A stretch of 7,119 nucleotides of DNA. It comes from Conexibacter sp. GTDB lineage: Bacteria; Actinomycetota; Thermoleophilia; Solirubrobacterales; Solirubrobacteraceae. The stretch lies in the NCBI GenBank assembly GCA_025964295.1, contig JAOPZD010000332.1, positions 1 to 7,119 on the forward strand, in the 5' to 3' direction. Under the pieces are notes generated by a model. It ran no database searches. It worked only from the letters and a program-made list of their open reading frames with translations, and was not told the origin of the DNA. Made by a program: the position numbers and the translations under genes. Of this stretch, positions 1,253 through 6,758 are shown in pieces; position 1 is the stretch's first letter; every line of letters begins with the position of its first letter.

Positions 1253-1846
1253 CTACTCGTGCAGCTTGCGGCCCTCGCGGCACATCGCCACGAACGTGGC
1301 GATGCGCCGCGCCCGCGTCTCGGGCTTCTTGGCCTGGCCGACGCGGAAGAGGATCGCGTAGCGGTTGTGGCTGTCGAGCGCGTCGAAGAAGGCGCGCGTG
1401 GCGGCCGGCTCGGCGTCCAGCGCCCGCTGCAGGTCCTCGGGGACCGTGGCGGTGCGCTGGCCGTCGTAGGCCACGTCCCAGCGGCCGTCGGCCTTGGCCC
1501 GCTCGATCTCGGCGTGCCCGGCCGGCCGCATCCGGCCCTGCTCGATCAACGCCTCCACCTTGGTGCAGTTGATCTTCGACCACGTGCTCCGCGGCCGCCG
1601 CGGGACGAAGCGCTGCAGGAAGCGCTCGTCGTCCAGCGCCCGCCGCTGGCCGTCGATCCAGCCGAAGCAGAGCGCCAGGTCCAGCGCCTCCTGATGGGTG
1701 ACCGTCGGGATCTTGGTGGCCTTCTTGGCGATCGCGATCCACACGCCCGGCCCGTCGGCGTTGCCGTCCTCGAGCCACGCCTCGAACGCGGCGGCGTCGG
1801 CGAAGGTCAGGACCGGGAGGTCGTCGGGGGAGGGGATCGCGGGCAT
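1253..1846 (-). CDS. YdeI/OmpD-associated (OmdA) family protein
   Basis: A 197-residue cytosolic protein of the YdeI/OmpD-associated family, linked in enterobacteria to bacteriocin or stress protection but of unknown biochemical activity in actinobacteria. Recognised from the N-terminal LPVLTFADAAAFEAWL (residues 10-25), the family signature LCFGWIDGQ (59-67) followed by RRPRSTWSKIN (83-93), DGRW (120-123), and a C-terminal OmdA-type helical region around PEDLQRAL and NRYAILFRVGQAKKPETR (136-179). Length is normal for the family. The ATG at 1846 is chosen because the N-terminus then matches relatives; no clear Shine-Dalgarno precedes it. It is divergent from the ion-channel gene and convergent with the flavin oxidoreductase. 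Family is confident, function is not. Confidence 0.88.
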   Translation of the reverse strand: MPAIPSPDDLPVLTFADAAAFEAWLEDGNADGPGVWIAIAKKATKIPTVTHQEALDLALCFGWIDGQRRALDDERFLQRFVPRRPRSTWSKINCTKVEALIEQGRMRPAGHAEIERAKADGRWDVAYDGQRTATVPEDLQRALDAEPAATRAFFDALDSHNRYAILFRVGQAKKPETRARRIATFVAMCREGRKLHE

Positions 1847-1904
1847 CGCGGGCAGTCAAGCACGCGCAGGAGGCGGAAGGGGTCCGTCGAACGCCGGTGG
1901 CACG
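1847..1904. other. Short divergent intergenic region
   Basis: This 58-bp gap must hold the promoters of both the YdeI-family gene and the ion-channel gene unless these start inside neighbouring genes. It contains AGGAGG (1868-1873) with no start codon at a usable distance on the plus strand. TTGACT on the minus strand lies close to the YdeI start, too near to serve as its -35. No confident promoter is seen. Confidence 0.4.
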
Positions 1905-2570
1905 ATGGCCTTCGGGAGGCAGACCGGCGGCGCGACGCACCGCTACGGGCGGGTGCTGCTGGCGACCGTCGTGACGGTGATCGCGACCATCGCGCTGCCC
2001 GACGACGACCTCGGCCACGGGATCGGGCTCGTGGTCCAGGCGCTGCTGCTGACGATGGTCACGATCGCGGCGCGCGATGCGCGCACGCGGGCGCTGACGG
2101 CGGTCGGCCTGGCCGCCGCGGTCCTCGGCCTCGTGTCGGCCCTCGGCGCGACGCTGCCGTCCTGGATCGTGCTCGGGCTCAGCGGCGCGCTGGCCGGGGC
2201 CATGGTCGCGACGATGGTGGCCGGCCTCGTCGCCCACGTCCGCGGCGCCGGCGTCACCCTCCAGGCCGTCGCCGGCGGCCTGGCGATGTACCTTCTGGTC
2301 GGCCTGCTCTTCGCCGACGTCGTCGGCGCCATCGCCGACGTCTCCGACGGCGCCTACTTCGCCCAGGGCACCGACGGCACCTCCGGCGAGCGCATCTACT
2401 ACTCCTTCATGTCGCTGACGACCACCGGCTTCGGCGACCTCACGCCGCGCCTCGAGGTCGGCCGCGCCCTCGCCGTCCTCGAAGTCCTCGTCGGCCAGAT
2501 CTACCTGGTCGTCGTCGTCGCGCTGCTGGTCGGCAACCTCAGGCCACGCACGCCGACCTCCGCCGGCTAG
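1905..2570 (+). CDS. Potassium-channel-type ion channel, six hydrophobic segments
   Basis: Integral membrane cation channel of the Ion_trans_2 (two-helix pore) family, 221 residues. Hydrophobic segments lie at about 15-33, 37-55, 62-82, 86-112 and 118-142. A pore helix YYSFMSLTTTGFGDLTP follows (165-181), containing the TxGFGD selectivity-filter signature, then the inner helix at about 186-211. No S4-like arginine ladder is seen, so voltage sensing is not indicated, and there is no RCK/TrkA-N regulatory domain after the pore. The frame is open upstream to 1698, but that part is antisense to the preceding gene and not membrane-like; the ATG at 1905 puts TM1 near the N-terminus. A GGTGG ends 4 bases before it, while a perfect AGGAGG at 1868-1873 is too far upstream to serve it. 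It ends 8 bp from the convergent antitoxin gene. K+ selectivity is inferred from GFG. Confidence 0.87.
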   Translation: MAFGRQTGGATHRYGRVLLATVVTVIATIALPDDDLGHGIGLVVQALLLTMVTIAARDARTRALTAVGLAAAVLGLVSALGATLPSWIVLGLSGALAGAMVATMVAGLVAHVRGAGVTLQAVAGGLAMYLLVGLLFADVVGAIADVSDGAYFAQGTDGTSGERIYYSFMSLTTTGFGDLTPRLEVGRALAVLEVLVGQIYLVVVVALLVGNLRPRTPTSAG

Positions 2571-2578: not shown

Positions 2579-2785
2579 CTACTTCGCAAGCCGCTCGAGA
2601 GCGGCCTTGTTCTCCTCCAGCGCCTTGCGGCGCCGTGCCTGGAACCCCTTGTCGGCGCGCCGCGCCTCGATGCGATCCTCGATGGCCGATCGAACCTGAT
2701 CGGCGACGGTGGTCCCGTCGACGCGCGCGACGGCGTCGAGCGCGGCGGCGGTGTCGTCGTCGAGGCGCAGGGTCATGGACTTCAT
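2579..2785 (-). CDS. Ribbon-helix-helix antitoxin, putative partner of Doc
   Basis: A 68-residue protein with a ribbon-helix-helix (MetJ/Arc/CopG-type) DNA-binding fold. The N-terminal MKSMTLRLDDDTAAALDAVA gives the beta-strand (about 3-8) and first helix, and TTVADQVRSAIEDRIEARR (25-43) the second. The highly charged C-terminal tail (44-68, rich in Arg, Lys and Glu) is what one expects of an antitoxin segment that folds on its toxin. The ATG at 2785 is chosen over an upstream in-frame ATG because GAGAGGG (2800 to 2794) lies 8 bases before it and the RHH strand begins at once. It is transcribed away from doc, with both starts facing a shared 93-bp repeat-rich gap, so it probably represses both promoters. 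Pairing with doc is inferred from position and from known RHH-Doc combinations. RHH fold is confident, antitoxin role likely. Confidence 0.82.
   Translation of the reverse strand: MKSMTLRLDDDTAAALDAVARVDGTTVADQVRSAIEDRIEARRADKGFQARRRKALEENKAALERLAK
2590..2605. terminator. Possible hairpin downstream of the channel gene
   Basis: GCCGCT (2590-2595) and AGCGGC (2600-2605) form a perfect 6-bp stem with a CGAG loop, about 20 bp past the channel stop, followed on the plus strand by the mildly T-rich CTTGTTCT. It could end transcription from the channel gene before it runs through the antitoxin. It also lies inside the antitoxin reading frame, and such stems arise easily in this base composition, so support is weak. 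Confidence 0.25.
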
Positions 2786-2793
2786 GATTGGAA

Positions 2794-2800
2794 CCCTCTC
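2794..2800 (-). promoter_or_regulatory. Ribosome binding site of the antitoxin gene
   Basis: GAGAGGG on the minus strand lies 8 bases upstream of the ATG at 2785. It fixes that start codon and contrasts with the divergent doc gene, which has no such site. Confidence 0.6.
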
Positions 2801-2819
2801 GTCCGGTATTGGCCGTGGC

Positions 2820-2825
2820 ATGCTA
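2820..2825 (-). promoter_or_regulatory. Possible -10 element of the antitoxin promoter
   Basis: TAGCAT on the minus strand fits the actinobacterial TANNNT -10 pattern. A transcript starting about 7 bases downstream would have a leader near 28 nt that includes the GAGAGGG site. The repeat array at 2842-2872 would then lie over the -35 region, suiting autorepression. No good -35 hexamer is visible, so this is tentative. Confidence 0.3.
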
Positions 2826-2841
2826 GATAGCGAGGTAGCGC

Positions 2842-2872
2842 ATACCACGGTATCACGGTATCTTGATACCGT
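2842..2872. promoter_or_regulatory. Candidate operator: direct and inverted ACGGTATC repeats
   Basis: The octamer ACGGTATC occurs twice in perfect tandem (2847-2854, 2855-2862) and once inverted as GATACCGT (2865-2872), so 2855-2872 is a perfect 8-bp inverted repeat around TT. The left end adds ATACC (2842-2846), which pairs with GGTAT (2849-2853) around AC. There are thus four half-sites in alternating orientation within 31 bp, their centres 7 to 9 bp apart. An isolated CGGTAT at 2804-2809 may be a fifth. The array sits between the divergent antitoxin and toxin starts, in the most AT-rich part of the window. RHH proteins bind short tandem or inverted sites cooperatively, so the antitoxin is the likely ligand. 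Confidence 0.65.
2867..2872 (+). promoter_or_regulatory. Possible -10 element for a leaderless doc transcript
   Basis: TACCGT fits the TANNNT -10 pattern and ends 6 bases before the GTG at 2879, the spacing expected if transcription starts on the start codon itself. It is embedded in the right arm of the operator palindrome, so a bound repressor would block it directly. No Shine-Dalgarno precedes the GTG. This is inference from spacing and pattern only. Confidence 0.35.
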
Positions 2873-2878
2873 AAATGG

Positions 2879-3271
2879 GTGCAGCGCCTCGACATCGCCG
2901 ACCTCCTGCTCATCGCCGAGGATCTCCTTGGGGAGCCAGCCGAGCAGCTCGTCCGGACGATCGACCTCGGCCTCGCCGAGTCCGCGCTGGCGGCGCCGTT
3001 CGCCACCTTCGAAGACCACGACTTCTACGAGGGCTACGCCCTGCGGGCGGCGATCCTCGCGTCGCGCATCGTCCGCAACCATCCGCTGATCGACGGCAAC
3101 AAGCGTCTGGCGCTCCTGGCGATGATCGAGTTCCTGTGGCGCAACGACCGGCCGTGGCCGTCGGACCTCGATCAGGACGAGGTCGCCGAGACGTTCGAGC
3201 GGCTGGCTGCCAGGGATCTCGCCGAGCCCGACTTCGCCGCCTGGGTCGCGGCAAAGCTGCGACAGAGCTAG
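2879..3271 (+). CDS. doc: Fic/Doc-family toxin (death-on-curing)
   Basis: A 130-residue Fic-fold toxin of the Doc type. Phage P1 Doc phosphorylates elongation factor EF-Tu and stops translation; the same target is a family-based expectation here. Seen: an N-terminal RLDIADLLLIAEDLLG helix (3-18), FYEGYALRAAILASRIVRN (49-67), and the Fic loop HPLIDGNKR (68-76) with catalytic His68, Asp72, Asn74 and the Doc-type Lys75-Arg76, a form nearer Doc than the GNGR of AMPylating Fic proteins. There is no internal inhibitory (S/T)xxxE(G/N) helix, as expected when a separate antitoxin does this job. The start is GTG at 2879: the frame has a stop at 2864-2866 and no other start between, and no Shine-Dalgarno is present. 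The putative RHH antitoxin is divergent, not upstream in the same operon. Its stop overlaps that of the convergent DUF3037 gene. Confidence 0.88.
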   Translation: MQRLDIADLLLIAEDLLGEPAEQLVRTIDLGLAESALAAPFATFEDHDFYEGYALRAAILASRIVRNHPLIDGNKRLALLAMIEFLWRNDRPWPSDLDQDEVAETFERLAARDLAEPDFAAWVAAKLRQS

Positions 3272-3657
3272 GCCACGAGCCGGGTGAAGAGGCGGTCCAG
3301 GACCGCTTCTGGGTCGTCGCAGATGCCGGTGTGGATCGGCGAGGGTTGGACGATCGTCGAGGAGGTGGCGGTCAGCCAGCCGAAGCGCTCGGACTGGTCG
3401 AGGTGGGCCACGGCGCCGCCCGCGGGGTCGCCGGCGGCGACGCGGACCATGCCGTCGAGGTGGCGGCGCAGGGCGTCGAGGTCGAGGTCGGGCGACAGCG
3501 CGCGCAGGCGCGGCTCGTCGAGGGTGGTCCGGGCGGCCAGGAACCGGCGGCGGCGGCAGAAGACGACGACGCCGACGTTGACCGCCTCGCCGCGCTCGAC
3601 GCTGGGCACGACGCGCCACATCGCGTACTGGAAGGCGTCGTCCTCACGCGATGGCAC
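3268..3657 (-). CDS. DUF3037 family protein
   Basis: A 129-residue protein of the DUF3037 family, function unknown. The family hallmark is seen in YAMWRVVPSVERGEAVNVGVVVF (residues 11-33), followed by an Arg-rich stretch, LDLDALRRHLDGMV (58-71) and a C-terminal segment ending DRLFTRLVA. The start is GTG at 3657, strongly supported by a GAGGAGG 6 bases upstream (3670 to 3664) inside the end of the HipA-like gene. The two genes overlap by 14 bp and are very likely translated from one message. DUF3037 genes are, to my knowledge, commonly found next to HipA-like kinases, so a shared role such as partner, substrate or antidote is plausible but unproven. Its TAG shares the tetranucleotide CTAG with the stop of doc on the other strand. 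Confidence 0.85.
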   Translation of the reverse strand: MPSREDDAFQYAMWRVVPSVERGEAVNVGVVVFCRRRRFLAARTTLDEPRLRALSPDLDLDALRRHLDGMVRVAAGDPAGGAVAHLDQSERFGWLTATSSTIVQPSPIHTGICDDPEAVLDRLFTRLVA

Positions 3658-4438
3658 GGCGCGCCTCCTCGGCCTCGGTGGCGAACGCGCGCGGCGCCGC
3701 GAGCCGCTGGGTGAAGTAGGCGACGTAGATCTCGCGCGCCAGGGGCGCCTCGCCGGGGCCGCCGAGCCAGTCGTCGGGCACCGCGCCGGCGATGCGCGCC
3801 AGCGTCGCGCGGTCCAACCTCGACGCGAGACGCGCGTCGGCCTCGGCGAGCGAGCCGGCGAAGGGCAGCAGGACGTGGTCGCCGATCAGCCCGAACCGCG
3901 CCTCCGCGGCGCCCTCGGGCCACGCCGGCGCGTGGTGGCGGTACAGCGCGGCGCCGTGGTCGATGAGCCACAGGTCGCGGTGCCAGAGCAACATGTTGGG
4001 GTTGCGGGGCGTGCGGTCGACGTTGGCGCACAGCGCGTCGAGCCAGACGACGTCGGCGGCCAGCTCCGGCGTCACGCCGACCGGCGCGGCGGGCGAGAAC
4101 GGCAGCGCGCCGGGCAGGAAGTCCAGCGCCGCGTTGGTCCCGCCACTGGCCGCGACGAGCTCCTGGATCTCGGGGTCGGGCTCGGCGGCCGCGAGCAGCG
4201 GGTCGACGTCGACGAGCACGATCTCGGGGACCCGCAGGCCCAGCGCGCGGGCGACCTCGCCCACGACGACCTCGGCGATCAGCGCCTTCAGCCCCTGGCC
4301 CGCGCCGCGGAACTTCACGACGAAGAGGACGTCGTCGTCGGCCTCGACCAGGCCCGGCATCGAGCCGCCCTCGCGCAGGGGCGTCACGTAGCGCGTGGCG
4401 CGCACGGTGCGCAGGGAAGCGGTCGTCGGCTCGGCCAT
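3644..4438 (-). CDS. HipA-like kinase domain protein
   Basis: A 264-residue protein resembling the stand-alone HipA-like kinase family (shorter than E. coli HipA, about 440 residues, and lacking the HipA N-terminal domain). Kinase signatures: VLFVVKF with the probable ATP-binding Lys42; AEVVVGEVARALGLRVPE with a helix-C type Glu56; the catalytic loop NVDRTPRNPNML with Asp141 and Asn148; and WLIDHGAAL with metal-binding Asp160. HipA itself phosphorylates glutamyl-tRNA synthetase; the substrate here is unknown. No HipB-type HTH gene is adjacent; instead it is followed, with a 14-bp overlap, by the DUF3037 gene. The ATG at 4438 gives a natural N-terminus (MAEPTTASLRTVRATRYVTP). Shine-Dalgarno is weak; TACCTT (4454 to 4449, minus strand) could be a -10 element giving a very short leader. 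Kinase fold likely, toxin role not established. Confidence 0.83.
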   Translation of the reverse strand: MAEPTTASLRTVRATRYVTPLREGGSMPGLVEADDDVLFVVKFRGAGQGLKALIAEVVVGEVARALGLRVPEIVLVDVDPLLAAAEPDPEIQELVAASGGTNAALDFLPGALPFSPAAPVGVTPELAADVVWLDALCANVDRTPRNPNMLLWHRDLWLIDHGAALYRHHAPAWPEGAAEARFGLIGDHVLLPFAGSLAEADARLASRLDRATLARIAGAVPDDWLGGPGEAPLAREIYVAYFTQRLAAPRAFATEAEEARRAIA

Positions 4439-4483: not shown

Positions 4484-5272
4484 ATGTGGTTCGAGGCCGA
4501 CAACATGGTCCTGACCGCCGCGCAGGCCGCCTGCGTGGCGCTCCCGGCCGCGGGCGTCCCGCGCGCGCTGCAGCGCTTCCGCGGCGGCGCGTGGGCCCTG
4601 GTCCTGCCGCTGTGCATCGTCGTGGTGATCGTCGCGATCAACGAGGTGCCCCAGAGCGCCGACGTCCTGACGTGGGTGGCGCTGCTGCTGGTCCCGCCCG
4701 GCTGCGCGCTCGCGCTCGGCTGGGCGATGCGCGGGGCGCGCTGGTGGCTGGCGCCGGTGGCGATCCCGCTGCTCGCGCTCGCCTGGGCCGACCAGGAGAC
4801 GCGGATCGGCCAGATCGCGACGATCCTGCTGATCGTCGGCTCGTGCGTGACGCTCGGCCGCCTGCTCGCCGGGGCCGCGCCGCTGCTGCTGCTCAAGCTC
4901 GGTCTGCTGGCGATGGCCATCTCCGACGCGATCCTCGTCTTCGGCAACACGCTGCAGGCGCCCAACGCGGTGCTCGTCGCCGCCCAGCCGGGCGCCGGCC
5001 TGCCGCAGCTGCAGTCGGCGACCTTCCACTTCGCCTCGCTGGGCTACGGCGACTTCTTCGCCGCCGCGGTGCTCGGCGGGATCCTGGCCGCGGAGCGCCG
5101 CCCGCAACTCGTGCCGGCGCTCGCGGTGCTCGTCGTCTCGCTCGCGTGGGACCAGCTCTTCCTCGTCGTCGACACGATCCCGGCGACCGTGCCGCCGGCG
5201 ATCGTGCTCATCGGCGTGGAGGTCTGGGCGCAAGTTCGGGCGCGCGGGCGCGTTGGCGCTCTCGATGCCTGA
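4484..5272 (+). CDS. Nine-segment membrane protein, candidate presenilin-like GxGD aspartyl protease
   Basis: A 262-residue polytopic membrane protein I could not assign by simple recognition. Hydrophobic segments lie at about 4-24 (weak), 36-54, 61-82, 87-102, 107-129, 131-157, 178-202, 209-230 and 234-250, nine in all. Segment 6 holds SDAILVFGN with Asp148, resembling the YDxFWVFGT of signal-peptide peptidases. Segment 7 holds SLGYGDFF with Asp190, resembling the (L)GxGD motif. Segment 9 holds TVPPAIVL (235-242) where these enzymes carry PAL. Order and roughly 42-residue Asp spacing fit the presenilin/SPP family, which cleaves transmembrane helices of substrates. Deviations: Ser for Tyr before Asp148, PPAI for PAL. 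A K+ channel reading of GYGD is less good (no TT before it). Start is ATG 4484; ATG 4505 has a better Shine-Dalgarno (GAGG, 8 bases away). Overlaps the amine oxidase by 8 bp. Confidence 0.55.
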   Translation: MWFEADNMVLTAAQAACVALPAAGVPRALQRFRGGAWALVLPLCIVVVIVAINEVPQSADVLTWVALLLVPPGCALALGWAMRGARWWLAPVAIPLLALAWADQETRIGQIATILLIVGSCVTLGRLLAGAAPLLLLKLGLLAMAISDAILVFGNTLQAPNAVLVAAQPGAGLPQLQSATFHFASLGYGDFFAAAVLGGILAAERRPQLVPALAVLVVSLAWDQLFLVVDTIPATVPPAIVLIGVEVWAQVRARGRVGALDA

Positions 5273-6758
5273 TGGACGACTGACCCGGAGAGGGATGCTG
5301 GGGGCCGGCGCGGCGGGTGGCGCCGGGCTGATGCTGGCCAAGGGCGCCGAGGCGCGAGCGGCCGGCGCCGCCGCGGGTTCGCCCACCGCCGTCGACGTCG
5401 TGGTCGTCGGCGCGGGCCTCGCGGGCCTGACGACCGCTCGCAAGCTCGTGGCGGCGGGCCGCTCCGTCGTCGTCCTGGAGGCCCGCGACCGCGTCGGCGG
5501 GCGCACGCTCAACCACGACCTCGGCGGCGGCGACGTCACCGAGGCCGGCGGCCAGTACGTCGGCCCGACGCAGAACCACGTCCTCGCGCTGGCTCAGGAG
5601 TTCGGCGTCGGGACCTACCCGGGGTACAACCCCGGCGAGAGCGTCTACGTCGCCGACGGCCGCGCCCAGCGCTACACGGGCGACATCCCGCCCGACGTCC
5701 AGGCACTGCCCGACCTGACGCAGATGATCCCGCGGCTGGACCAGATGGCCGCCAAGGTCCCCGTCGACGCGCCGTGGACCGCGCCCGACGCCGAGCGGCT
5801 CGACGGCCAGACCGTCGAGACCTGGGTCAAGGGCAACACCATCAACAGCGCCCGCGTCCTGCAGCTGGTCGACCTCTTTCTCTCGCCGGCGCTGGGCAGC
5901 CGCGCCGCCGACGTCTCGATGCTCTTCCTGCTGGCCACGATCGCCGGCTACGGCGACGAGCGCACGCCGGGGACGCTGGAGCGCGGCATCGGCAGCAAGG
6001 GCGCCGCGCAGGACAGCCGACTGATCGGCGGGACGCAGCGGCTCTCGCTGCTCATGGCCCAGCAGCTCGGCGACCGCGTCGTCCTCGGCGCGCCGGTTCG
6101 ATCGATCGACCAGAGCGGCGCGGGCGGCGGCGTCACCGTCACGACCGCCGACGGCCGCGCCTGGCACGCGGGCCGCGCCGTCGTGGCGATCCCGCCGCCG
6201 CTGGCGGTCGAGATCGACTGGACGCCGCTGCTGCCCGCCGAGCATGACAGCCTGCGCCGGCGCATGGTCCTCGGCACGCTGGCCAAGTGCGAGGCCATCT
6301 ACGACGAGCCGTTCTGGCGCAAGGACGGGCTCAACGGCCAGGCGCTGAAGCTCGGCGACGCGGCCGTCCCCGCGATGTTCGACAACACGCCGCCGGACGG
6401 GAGGCCGGGCGTGTTGATGGGGTTCATGGGCGGCCGCTCGTGGCGGCGGTGGCAGACGCGCTCGGCCGCCGACCGCCGCGCGGCCGTCCTGGAGGACTTC
6501 GCCCAGGCGTTCGGGGCGAAGGCCCGCACACCGATCGACTACTTCGAGCAGGACTGGGTCGGGGAGCGCTGGACGCGCGGCGCCCCGACCTCGGTCCTCG
6601 GCCCGGGCACGCTGGTCGACTTCGGCGCCAAGCTGACCGAGCCGGTCGGCGCGGTGCACTGGGCCGGCACGGAGACCGCGGGCTACTGGAACGGCTACAT
6701 GGACGGCGCGATCAGCTCGGGCAAGCGCGCCGCGGCGGAGGTGCTGGCCGCGCTGTAG
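5265..6758 (+). CDS. Flavin amine oxidase with Tat-like leader
   Basis: A 497-residue FAD-dependent amine oxidase (monoamine-oxidase family), oxidising an amine to an imine/aldehyde with peroxide release; the amine is unknown. N-terminal LTRRGMLGAG and a small hydrophobic Ala/Gly stretch (6-35) resemble a Tat signal, suggesting export of the folded flavoprotein. Then the dinucleotide-binding motif VVVGAGLAGL (46-55), LEAR with ribose-binding Glu72, and RVGGRT (76-81). LAKCEAIYDEPFWRK includes Lys341, equivalent by alignment to the catalytic-water Lys of MAO-B. C-terminal WAGTETAGYWNGYMDGAISSG closes the FAD site. The covalent-FAD Cys of mammalian MAO is replaced (RGAPTS), so FAD is probably non-covalent. 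ATG 5265 overlaps the preceding stop as ATGCCTGA with no good Shine-Dalgarno, suggesting translational coupling; TTG 5253 is an alternative. Confidence 0.9.
   Translation: MPDGRLTRRGMLGAGAAGGAGLMLAKGAEARAAGAAAGSPTAVDVVVVGAGLAGLTTARKLVAAGRSVVVLEARDRVGGRTLNHDLGGGDVTEAGGQYVGPTQNHVLALAQEFGVGTYPGYNPGESVYVADGRAQRYTGDIPPDVQALPDLTQMIPRLDQMAAKVPVDAPWTAPDAERLDGQTVETWVKGNTINSARVLQLVDLFLSPALGSRAADVSMLFLLATIAGYGDERTPGTLERGIGSKGAAQDSRLIGGTQRLSLLMAQQLGDRVVLGAPVRSIDQSGAGGGVTVTTADGRAWHAGRAVVAIPPPLAVEIDWTPLLPAEHDSLRRRMVLGTLAKCEAIYDEPFWRKDGLNGQALKLGDAAVPAMFDNTPPDGRPGVLMGFMGGRSWRRWQTRSAADRRAAVLEDFAQAFGAKARTPIDYFEQDWVGERWTRGAPTSVLGPGTLVDFGAKLTEPVGAVHWAGTETAGYWNGYMDGAISSGKRAAAEVLAAL

Follow-up and report, generated by a model that had tools for sequence, protein, structure and literature searches.

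The window analysed here is a 7,119-nucleotide stretch of DNA from Conexibacter sp. (contig JAOPZD010000332.1). The product of one of its genes is very probably a bacterial intramembrane aspartyl protease that adopts the presenilin/signal peptide peptidase (SPP) fold, as judged from predicted models and conservation. The open reading frame (ORF) gives 262 residues plus a stop, and the product is very hydrophobic. The initial annotation had proposed a divergent bacterial member of the presenilin/SPP proteases, to be given up on a clear match to an unrelated family. The window protein matched no family in the Pfam (E≤1) and NCBIfam (E≤5) scans, and a plasmid search with it found no match.

The predicted model of the window protein contains nine long helices (residues 5-19, 35-54, 58-81, 87-102, 107-131, 134-153, 188-203, 209-227 and 236-261); two further helices, 27-30 and 158-166, are short. 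The nine long helices bear out the nine hydrophobic segments that had been counted by eye, and the three motifs fall in the segments to which they had been assigned. Asp148 sits inside ISDAILVFGN of helix 6, SLGYGD with Asp190 marks the beginning of helix 7, and helix 9 has TVPPAIVL (235-242) at its beginning. The two aspartates are thereby on adjacent helices.

Two models predicted from non-overlapping alignments agree on the presenilin fold, which is 4-5 Z units ahead of the next fold. Among the criteria of the peptidase family A22, the nine-helix presenilin fold is found in the predicted models only. The landmarks of the window model come in the same order as in presenilin-1 (PS1): D148, helix 158-166, strands 178-181 and 184-187, D190 and P237-P238-A239. 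In substrate-bound PS1, beta1 (Y288-S290), beta2 (R377-L381) and the substrate form a hybrid sheet beside the transmembrane (TM) helix TM6a (L268-E277), and L432, adjoining PAL, likewise bonds to this sheet (excerpt of PMC10290658). An invariant LPxLQ directly precedes beta1 in the window model, as LFPALIY does in PS1. The D190-A239 spacing equals that of D385-A434 in PS1 at 49 (PS1 TM7 and PAL numbering after an excerpt of PMC7248309), and the literal PAL of 19 relatives falls exactly at the PS1-equivalent spacing.

Conservation was counted over 384 relatives, comprising the window protein, 360 listed matches from three family searches (the best 120 of each, possibly overlapping) and 23 distinct locus translations, with two duplicates removed. 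This is an uneven and non-independent sample that reduces to 32 representatives at <70% identity and 9 at <50%. Six columns are invariant, P71, D148, P174, L176, Q177 and D190, and four are nearly so, T235 (383), P237 (381), G187 (381) and Q14 (381, with 3 gaps). The window protein has 13 acidic residues, of which D148 and D190 alone are conserved; the other 11 positions are acidic in 29-251 of the 384. A more diverse alignment of 30 sequences, in which identity to the window protein falls as low as 25%, has ten invariant columns including both. Free variation of either Asp, which had been named as refuting the proposal, is thus not seen in any of the 384.

At E≤0.001, 2296 of the 7996 candidates scored in the window-protein search were homologs. 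Taken with the invariant Asp pair, they show the motifs to be more than a coincidence. A relative 44% identical to the window protein matched 4175 of 7998 candidates as the query, and a profile built from the seven most distant full-length loci matched 944 of 7998. The initial annotation is also supported in calling the bacterial family under-described. In the class of Paraconexibacter antarcticus, at least 20 of 149 genomes have a match to the first profile and at least 21 of 149 to another profile, both lower bounds because at most 17 candidates were scored per genome.

Organism names stand on 15 of the 360 matches listed and are all of Thermoleophilia: Baekduia (4) in the window-protein search, Solirubrobacteraceae (3) in the search with the 44%-identical relative, and Gaiellaceae (6), Gaiellales (1) and 'Thermoleophilia bacterium' (1) in the distant-profile search. 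The nearest named relatives are Conexibacter metagenome-assembled genomes (89% and 82%) and Baekduia alba (88%), of the lineage Actinomycetota, Thermoleophilia, Solirubrobacterales. Seven related loci belong to Conexibacter, Paraconexibacter, Thermoleophilaceae and Solirubrobacteraceae.

With the first profile (A3), the seven distant full-length loci are recovered at E-values between 6e-31 and 3e-19, and a fragment at a contig end follows at 5e-4. Genome G018 is missed by A3 but found by the distant profile (A6). The latter recovers the other members, as their best piece, at 7e-26 or better. Since the two profiles largely recover each other's members, the near and distant relatives are taken as one family. 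One genome (G114) carries two divergent copies (L013 and L030). An insertion of ~35 residues lies between helices 5 and 6 in L031 994-1923 (-) and L032 967-1902 (-). For a 358-residue relative (P0299), the precomputed Pfam label is PF26421.1, but rescanning at E≤1 did not return this family.

Several observations weigh against the presenilin/SPP assignment, and the signature motifs come first. The YD tyrosine of A22 is absent in all 384, where position 147 is A (116), L (96), S (80), V (67), T (18), I (6) or F (1). The 'Ser replacing Tyr' of the initial annotation therefore does not hold, this position being free in the family. The 187-190 motif is GYGD (255), GWLD (107), GWGD (17), DYGD (2), GFGD (1), GWMD (1) or DFGD (1). 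A literal GxGD is thus present in 273 of the 384, including the window protein, with GWLD/GWMD in 108 and D[YF]GD in 3. Position 189 is Gly in 276 and Leu or Met in 108, and the latter make one clade (support 0.977).

Residues 237-240 are mostly PVLA (99), PPAI (97), PVAL (89) or PPAL (18), with others fewer. A literal PAL at 238-240 is found in 19 of the 384, and the window protein has PAI there. The conserved proline of the family is P237, one residue ahead of the PAL position. 'PPAI replacing PAL' likewise fails as a family description, as only the first Pro of this variable stretch is kept (381/384).

A presenilin fold without a protease role, its scaffold kept by an ion-leak channel, a chaperone or a binding protein, would accommodate these losses of the Tyr, of PAL and, in one clade, of GxGD. 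We regard it as unlikely because both Asp are invariant amid near-general variation, while a lost active site is expected to drift. Moreover, the LPxLQ loop, at the place of the presenilin docking strand, is just as invariant.

The sequence statistics for presenilin kinship are weak. With a hidden Markov model (HMM) of columns 135-255, shuffles scored as high as PS1 378-467 in 9 of 3000 cases, as PS1 249-302 in 2345 and as both fragments joined in 7. With the full-length HMM, these numbers were 40 (378-467), 859 (249-302) and 86 (joined) of 3000. Searches of PDB sequences with family queries gave nothing or a marginal A22 signal, and no A22 model is among the Pfam models listed for members of two family alignments. 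An approximate SPP fragment query, in a search of which only the printed SPPL2a letters were used, matched antibody light chains about as strongly as SPPL2a (E 0.2 and 0.29).

The PF06550 (SPP) model matched 0 of 100 genomes of the relatives' phylum, including two (G001 and G004) that hold family members, and 2 of 14 control genomes, both archaeal. The archaeal enzyme PSH is one that we take to be a member of PF06550. Membership in the sequence-defined A22 families was tried and rejected for the window protein, which has no Pfam match, no Tyr, and PAI instead of PAL. The protein is therefore kept out of A22 in the sense of the YD and PAL motifs and the Pfam models, which were tested and not found in it. 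Hence the proposal of a divergent presenilin/SPP member stands as to the predicted fold, the invariant Asp pair and the helix positions of the motifs, and falls as to the A22 sequence criteria.

With the sequence similarity to A22 at or near noise, the presenilin match might be an artefact of modelling or the convergence of a generic nine-helix bundle, and AlphaFold2 is acquainted with presenilins. This seems extremely improbable, given the agreement and the lead of the two independent-alignment models and the landing of the invariant Asp pair on the presenilin active-site helices.

As another di-aspartyl candidate, the protein could be a divergent member of the type IV prepilin peptidases (A24) and would then cut prepilins at the membrane surface. 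The GxGDxK stretch of A24 is resembled by GYGDFF..AVLGG here, and weak Peptidase_A24 matches occur in two sets of members, 3 of 40 (best E 3.6) and 2 of 30 (best E 0.036). One source labels a relative (P0061) as 'prepilin signal peptidase PulO-like enzyme'. However, the window protein has no PF01478 match at E≤1, and the bit scores given, 15.3 for the family gene of G001, 12 for P0062 and 10.8 for P0061, are all below the PF01478 cut-off of 26.5. Position 192, two residues past the Asp, is F, L, A, Y or S and never the Lys of A24 in the 384.

All seven genomes searched have a separate A24 gene above the cut-off elsewhere. Aligned with these seven by hhalign, some of their rows including upstream non-gene residues, the family reaches a probability of 4% locally and 1% over 14 columns globally. 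The GxGD stretches are paired, yet the other A24 Asp lands on R126 and not on D148. The A24 aspartates are several helices apart (excerpt of PMC2947513) but on adjacent helices here. No A24 structure is among the structure matches listed, an absence that does not exclude the A24 fold. The prepilin peptidase identity was rejected on the separate A24 genes and the hhalign result, and we consider it very unlikely.

Returning to the presenilin/SPP-type protease, its nine helices would make up the enzyme, and Asp148 and Asp190 would activate a water between them. The end of a substrate TM helix may unwind, join the beta-hairpin 178-187 as an added strand and be cut there. Next to the cutting place would lie the TM6a-like helix (158-166), the invariant LPxLQ loop and, heading helix 9, the TxP segment.

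Lys and Arg are more frequent in loops 1, 3, 5 and 7 than in loops 2, 4, 6 and 8 in all 384 relatives, the loop limits being drawn by hand from the predicted model with the tails excluded. By the positive-inside rule, this excess in the odd loops points to an outside N-terminus and an inside C-terminus. The likeliest substrates would therefore be helices with a cytoplasmic N-terminus, namely type II membrane proteins or the remnants of signal peptides. In E. coli, RseP is able to cut the signal peptides spanning the membrane and SppA those released into the periplasm (excerpt of PMC9360617).

The predicted orientation is the same as that of SPP and opposite to that of PS1, the catalytic subunit of gamma-secretase (A22A). 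Presenilin is the enzyme behind the Alzheimer peptides. Its two Asp are separated by 127 residues in PS1 but by 41 in the window protein, which has no known partner subunits. Human SPPL2a and SPP (A22B) differ from the window protein, which is of 262 residues without an extra domain, in PAL and a Pfam match. A Tyr precedes the first Asp in presenilin and SPPL2a and never in our family. PSH (MCMJR1), a nine-helix A22 enzyme of an archaeon, also retains it as YD162 but likewise lacks an obvious PAL (excerpts of PMC4343526 and PMC2947513). The A24 enzymes, type IV prepilin peptidase and FlaK, are likewise membrane proteins with GxGD and a further Asp but differ by the Lys after GxGD, the non-adjacent Asp helices and the separate gene.

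We found no report of a bacterial presenilin/SPP protease in the open-access literature, going by titles and abstract beginnings among the matches listed. A 'bacterial presenilin homologue' named in a membrane-lipid review may mean the archaeal PSH. It is mentioned there in passing (excerpt of PMC8396450). The prokaryotic presenilin/SPP proteases are described from archaea in the excerpts of PMC4343526 and PMC2947513. What appears new here is the bacterial origin and the changed signature motifs, while the predicted fold and the Asp pair are of a known kind. These results suggest that a protease type known mainly from archaea and eukaryotes is also present in one bacterial class, where it would cleave helices.

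A broader reading has about an even chance. In it, Thermoleophilia hold the presenilin/SPP fold as an established bacterial family in the SPP-like orientation, and one GWLD/GWMD clade, with Gaiellaceae among its named members, keeps both Asp. Neither the YD Tyr nor the GxGD Gly would then be needed for this chemistry. The smallest invariant set would consist of the two Asp, the LPxLQ docking loop and a TxP segment. If true, the bacterial branch bears on the origin of presenilin and SPP and provides mechanistic and inhibitor studies with a small enzyme of one subunit, and the importance of the motif residues can be tested on the natural GxLD variants. This branch may also be an unrecognised route for signal-peptide clearance or signalling in Thermoleophilia.

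Table 1. Positions of the protease-like gene, its landmarks and the neighbouring genes in the window.
Feature	Position	Strand	Basis
Candidate presenilin/SPP-fold di-aspartyl membrane protein, 262 aa	4484..5272	+	ORF translation, predicted model, relatives' alignment
Asp148 codon, helix 6, predicted first catalytic Asp	4925..4927	+	Asp in 384/384; helix 134-153
Short helix 158-166, counterpart of presenilin TM6a	4955..4981	+	model; PS1 TM6a L268-E277, excerpt of PMC10290658
LPxLQ loop, residues 173-177	5000..5014	+	P174, L176, Q177 in 384/384
Predicted beta-hairpin, strands 178-181 / 184-187, just before Asp190, counterpart of presenilin beta1/beta2	5015..5044	+	model; excerpt of PMC10290658
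GYGD motif (187-190), Asp190 predicted second catalytic Asp	5042..5053	+	D190 384/384, G187 381/384, G189 276/384
TVPPAI (235-240), start of helix 9, PAL-motif position	5186..5203	+	T235 383/384, P237 381/384
Membrane protein with Ion_trans_2 (ion channel) domain at C-terminal end	1698-2570	+	E 2.6e-10
Ribbon-helix-helix (RHH)-like gene beside Fic/Doc gene	2579-3271	- (RHH-like), + (Fic/Doc)	DUF6290/RHH weak, under cut-offs; Fic/Doc E 9.9e-12
DUF3037 gene, next after HipA-like kinase gene	3268-3657		Pfam scan
HipA-like kinase gene	3644-4438	-	PF20613, E 4e-15
Flavin amine oxidase	5265-6758	+	PF01593, E 1.4e-68

The neighbourhood was compared by matching the ORFs of 27 loci, including the window, all against all. 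Setting aside groups that consist of frames of the protein itself or antisense to it, none of the shared groups listed covers more than 4 loci. Thus no conserved neighbour or operon among the 27 loci points to a substrate. The window's own neighbours recur only in two of the loci compared (L001 and L002), where the HipA-like and DUF3037 genes both adjoin the family homolog.

The HipA-like kinase gene is divergent from the presenilin-like gene with 45 bases between them. The ribbon-helix-helix-like and Fic/Doc genes are a possible toxin-antitoxin pair, and the latter carries HPLIDGNKR. On the other side, the likely start of the flavin amine oxidase overlaps the end of the presenilin-like gene, and its N-terminus, RRGMLGAGAAGG, resembles a twin-arginine translocation (Tat) signal by eye.
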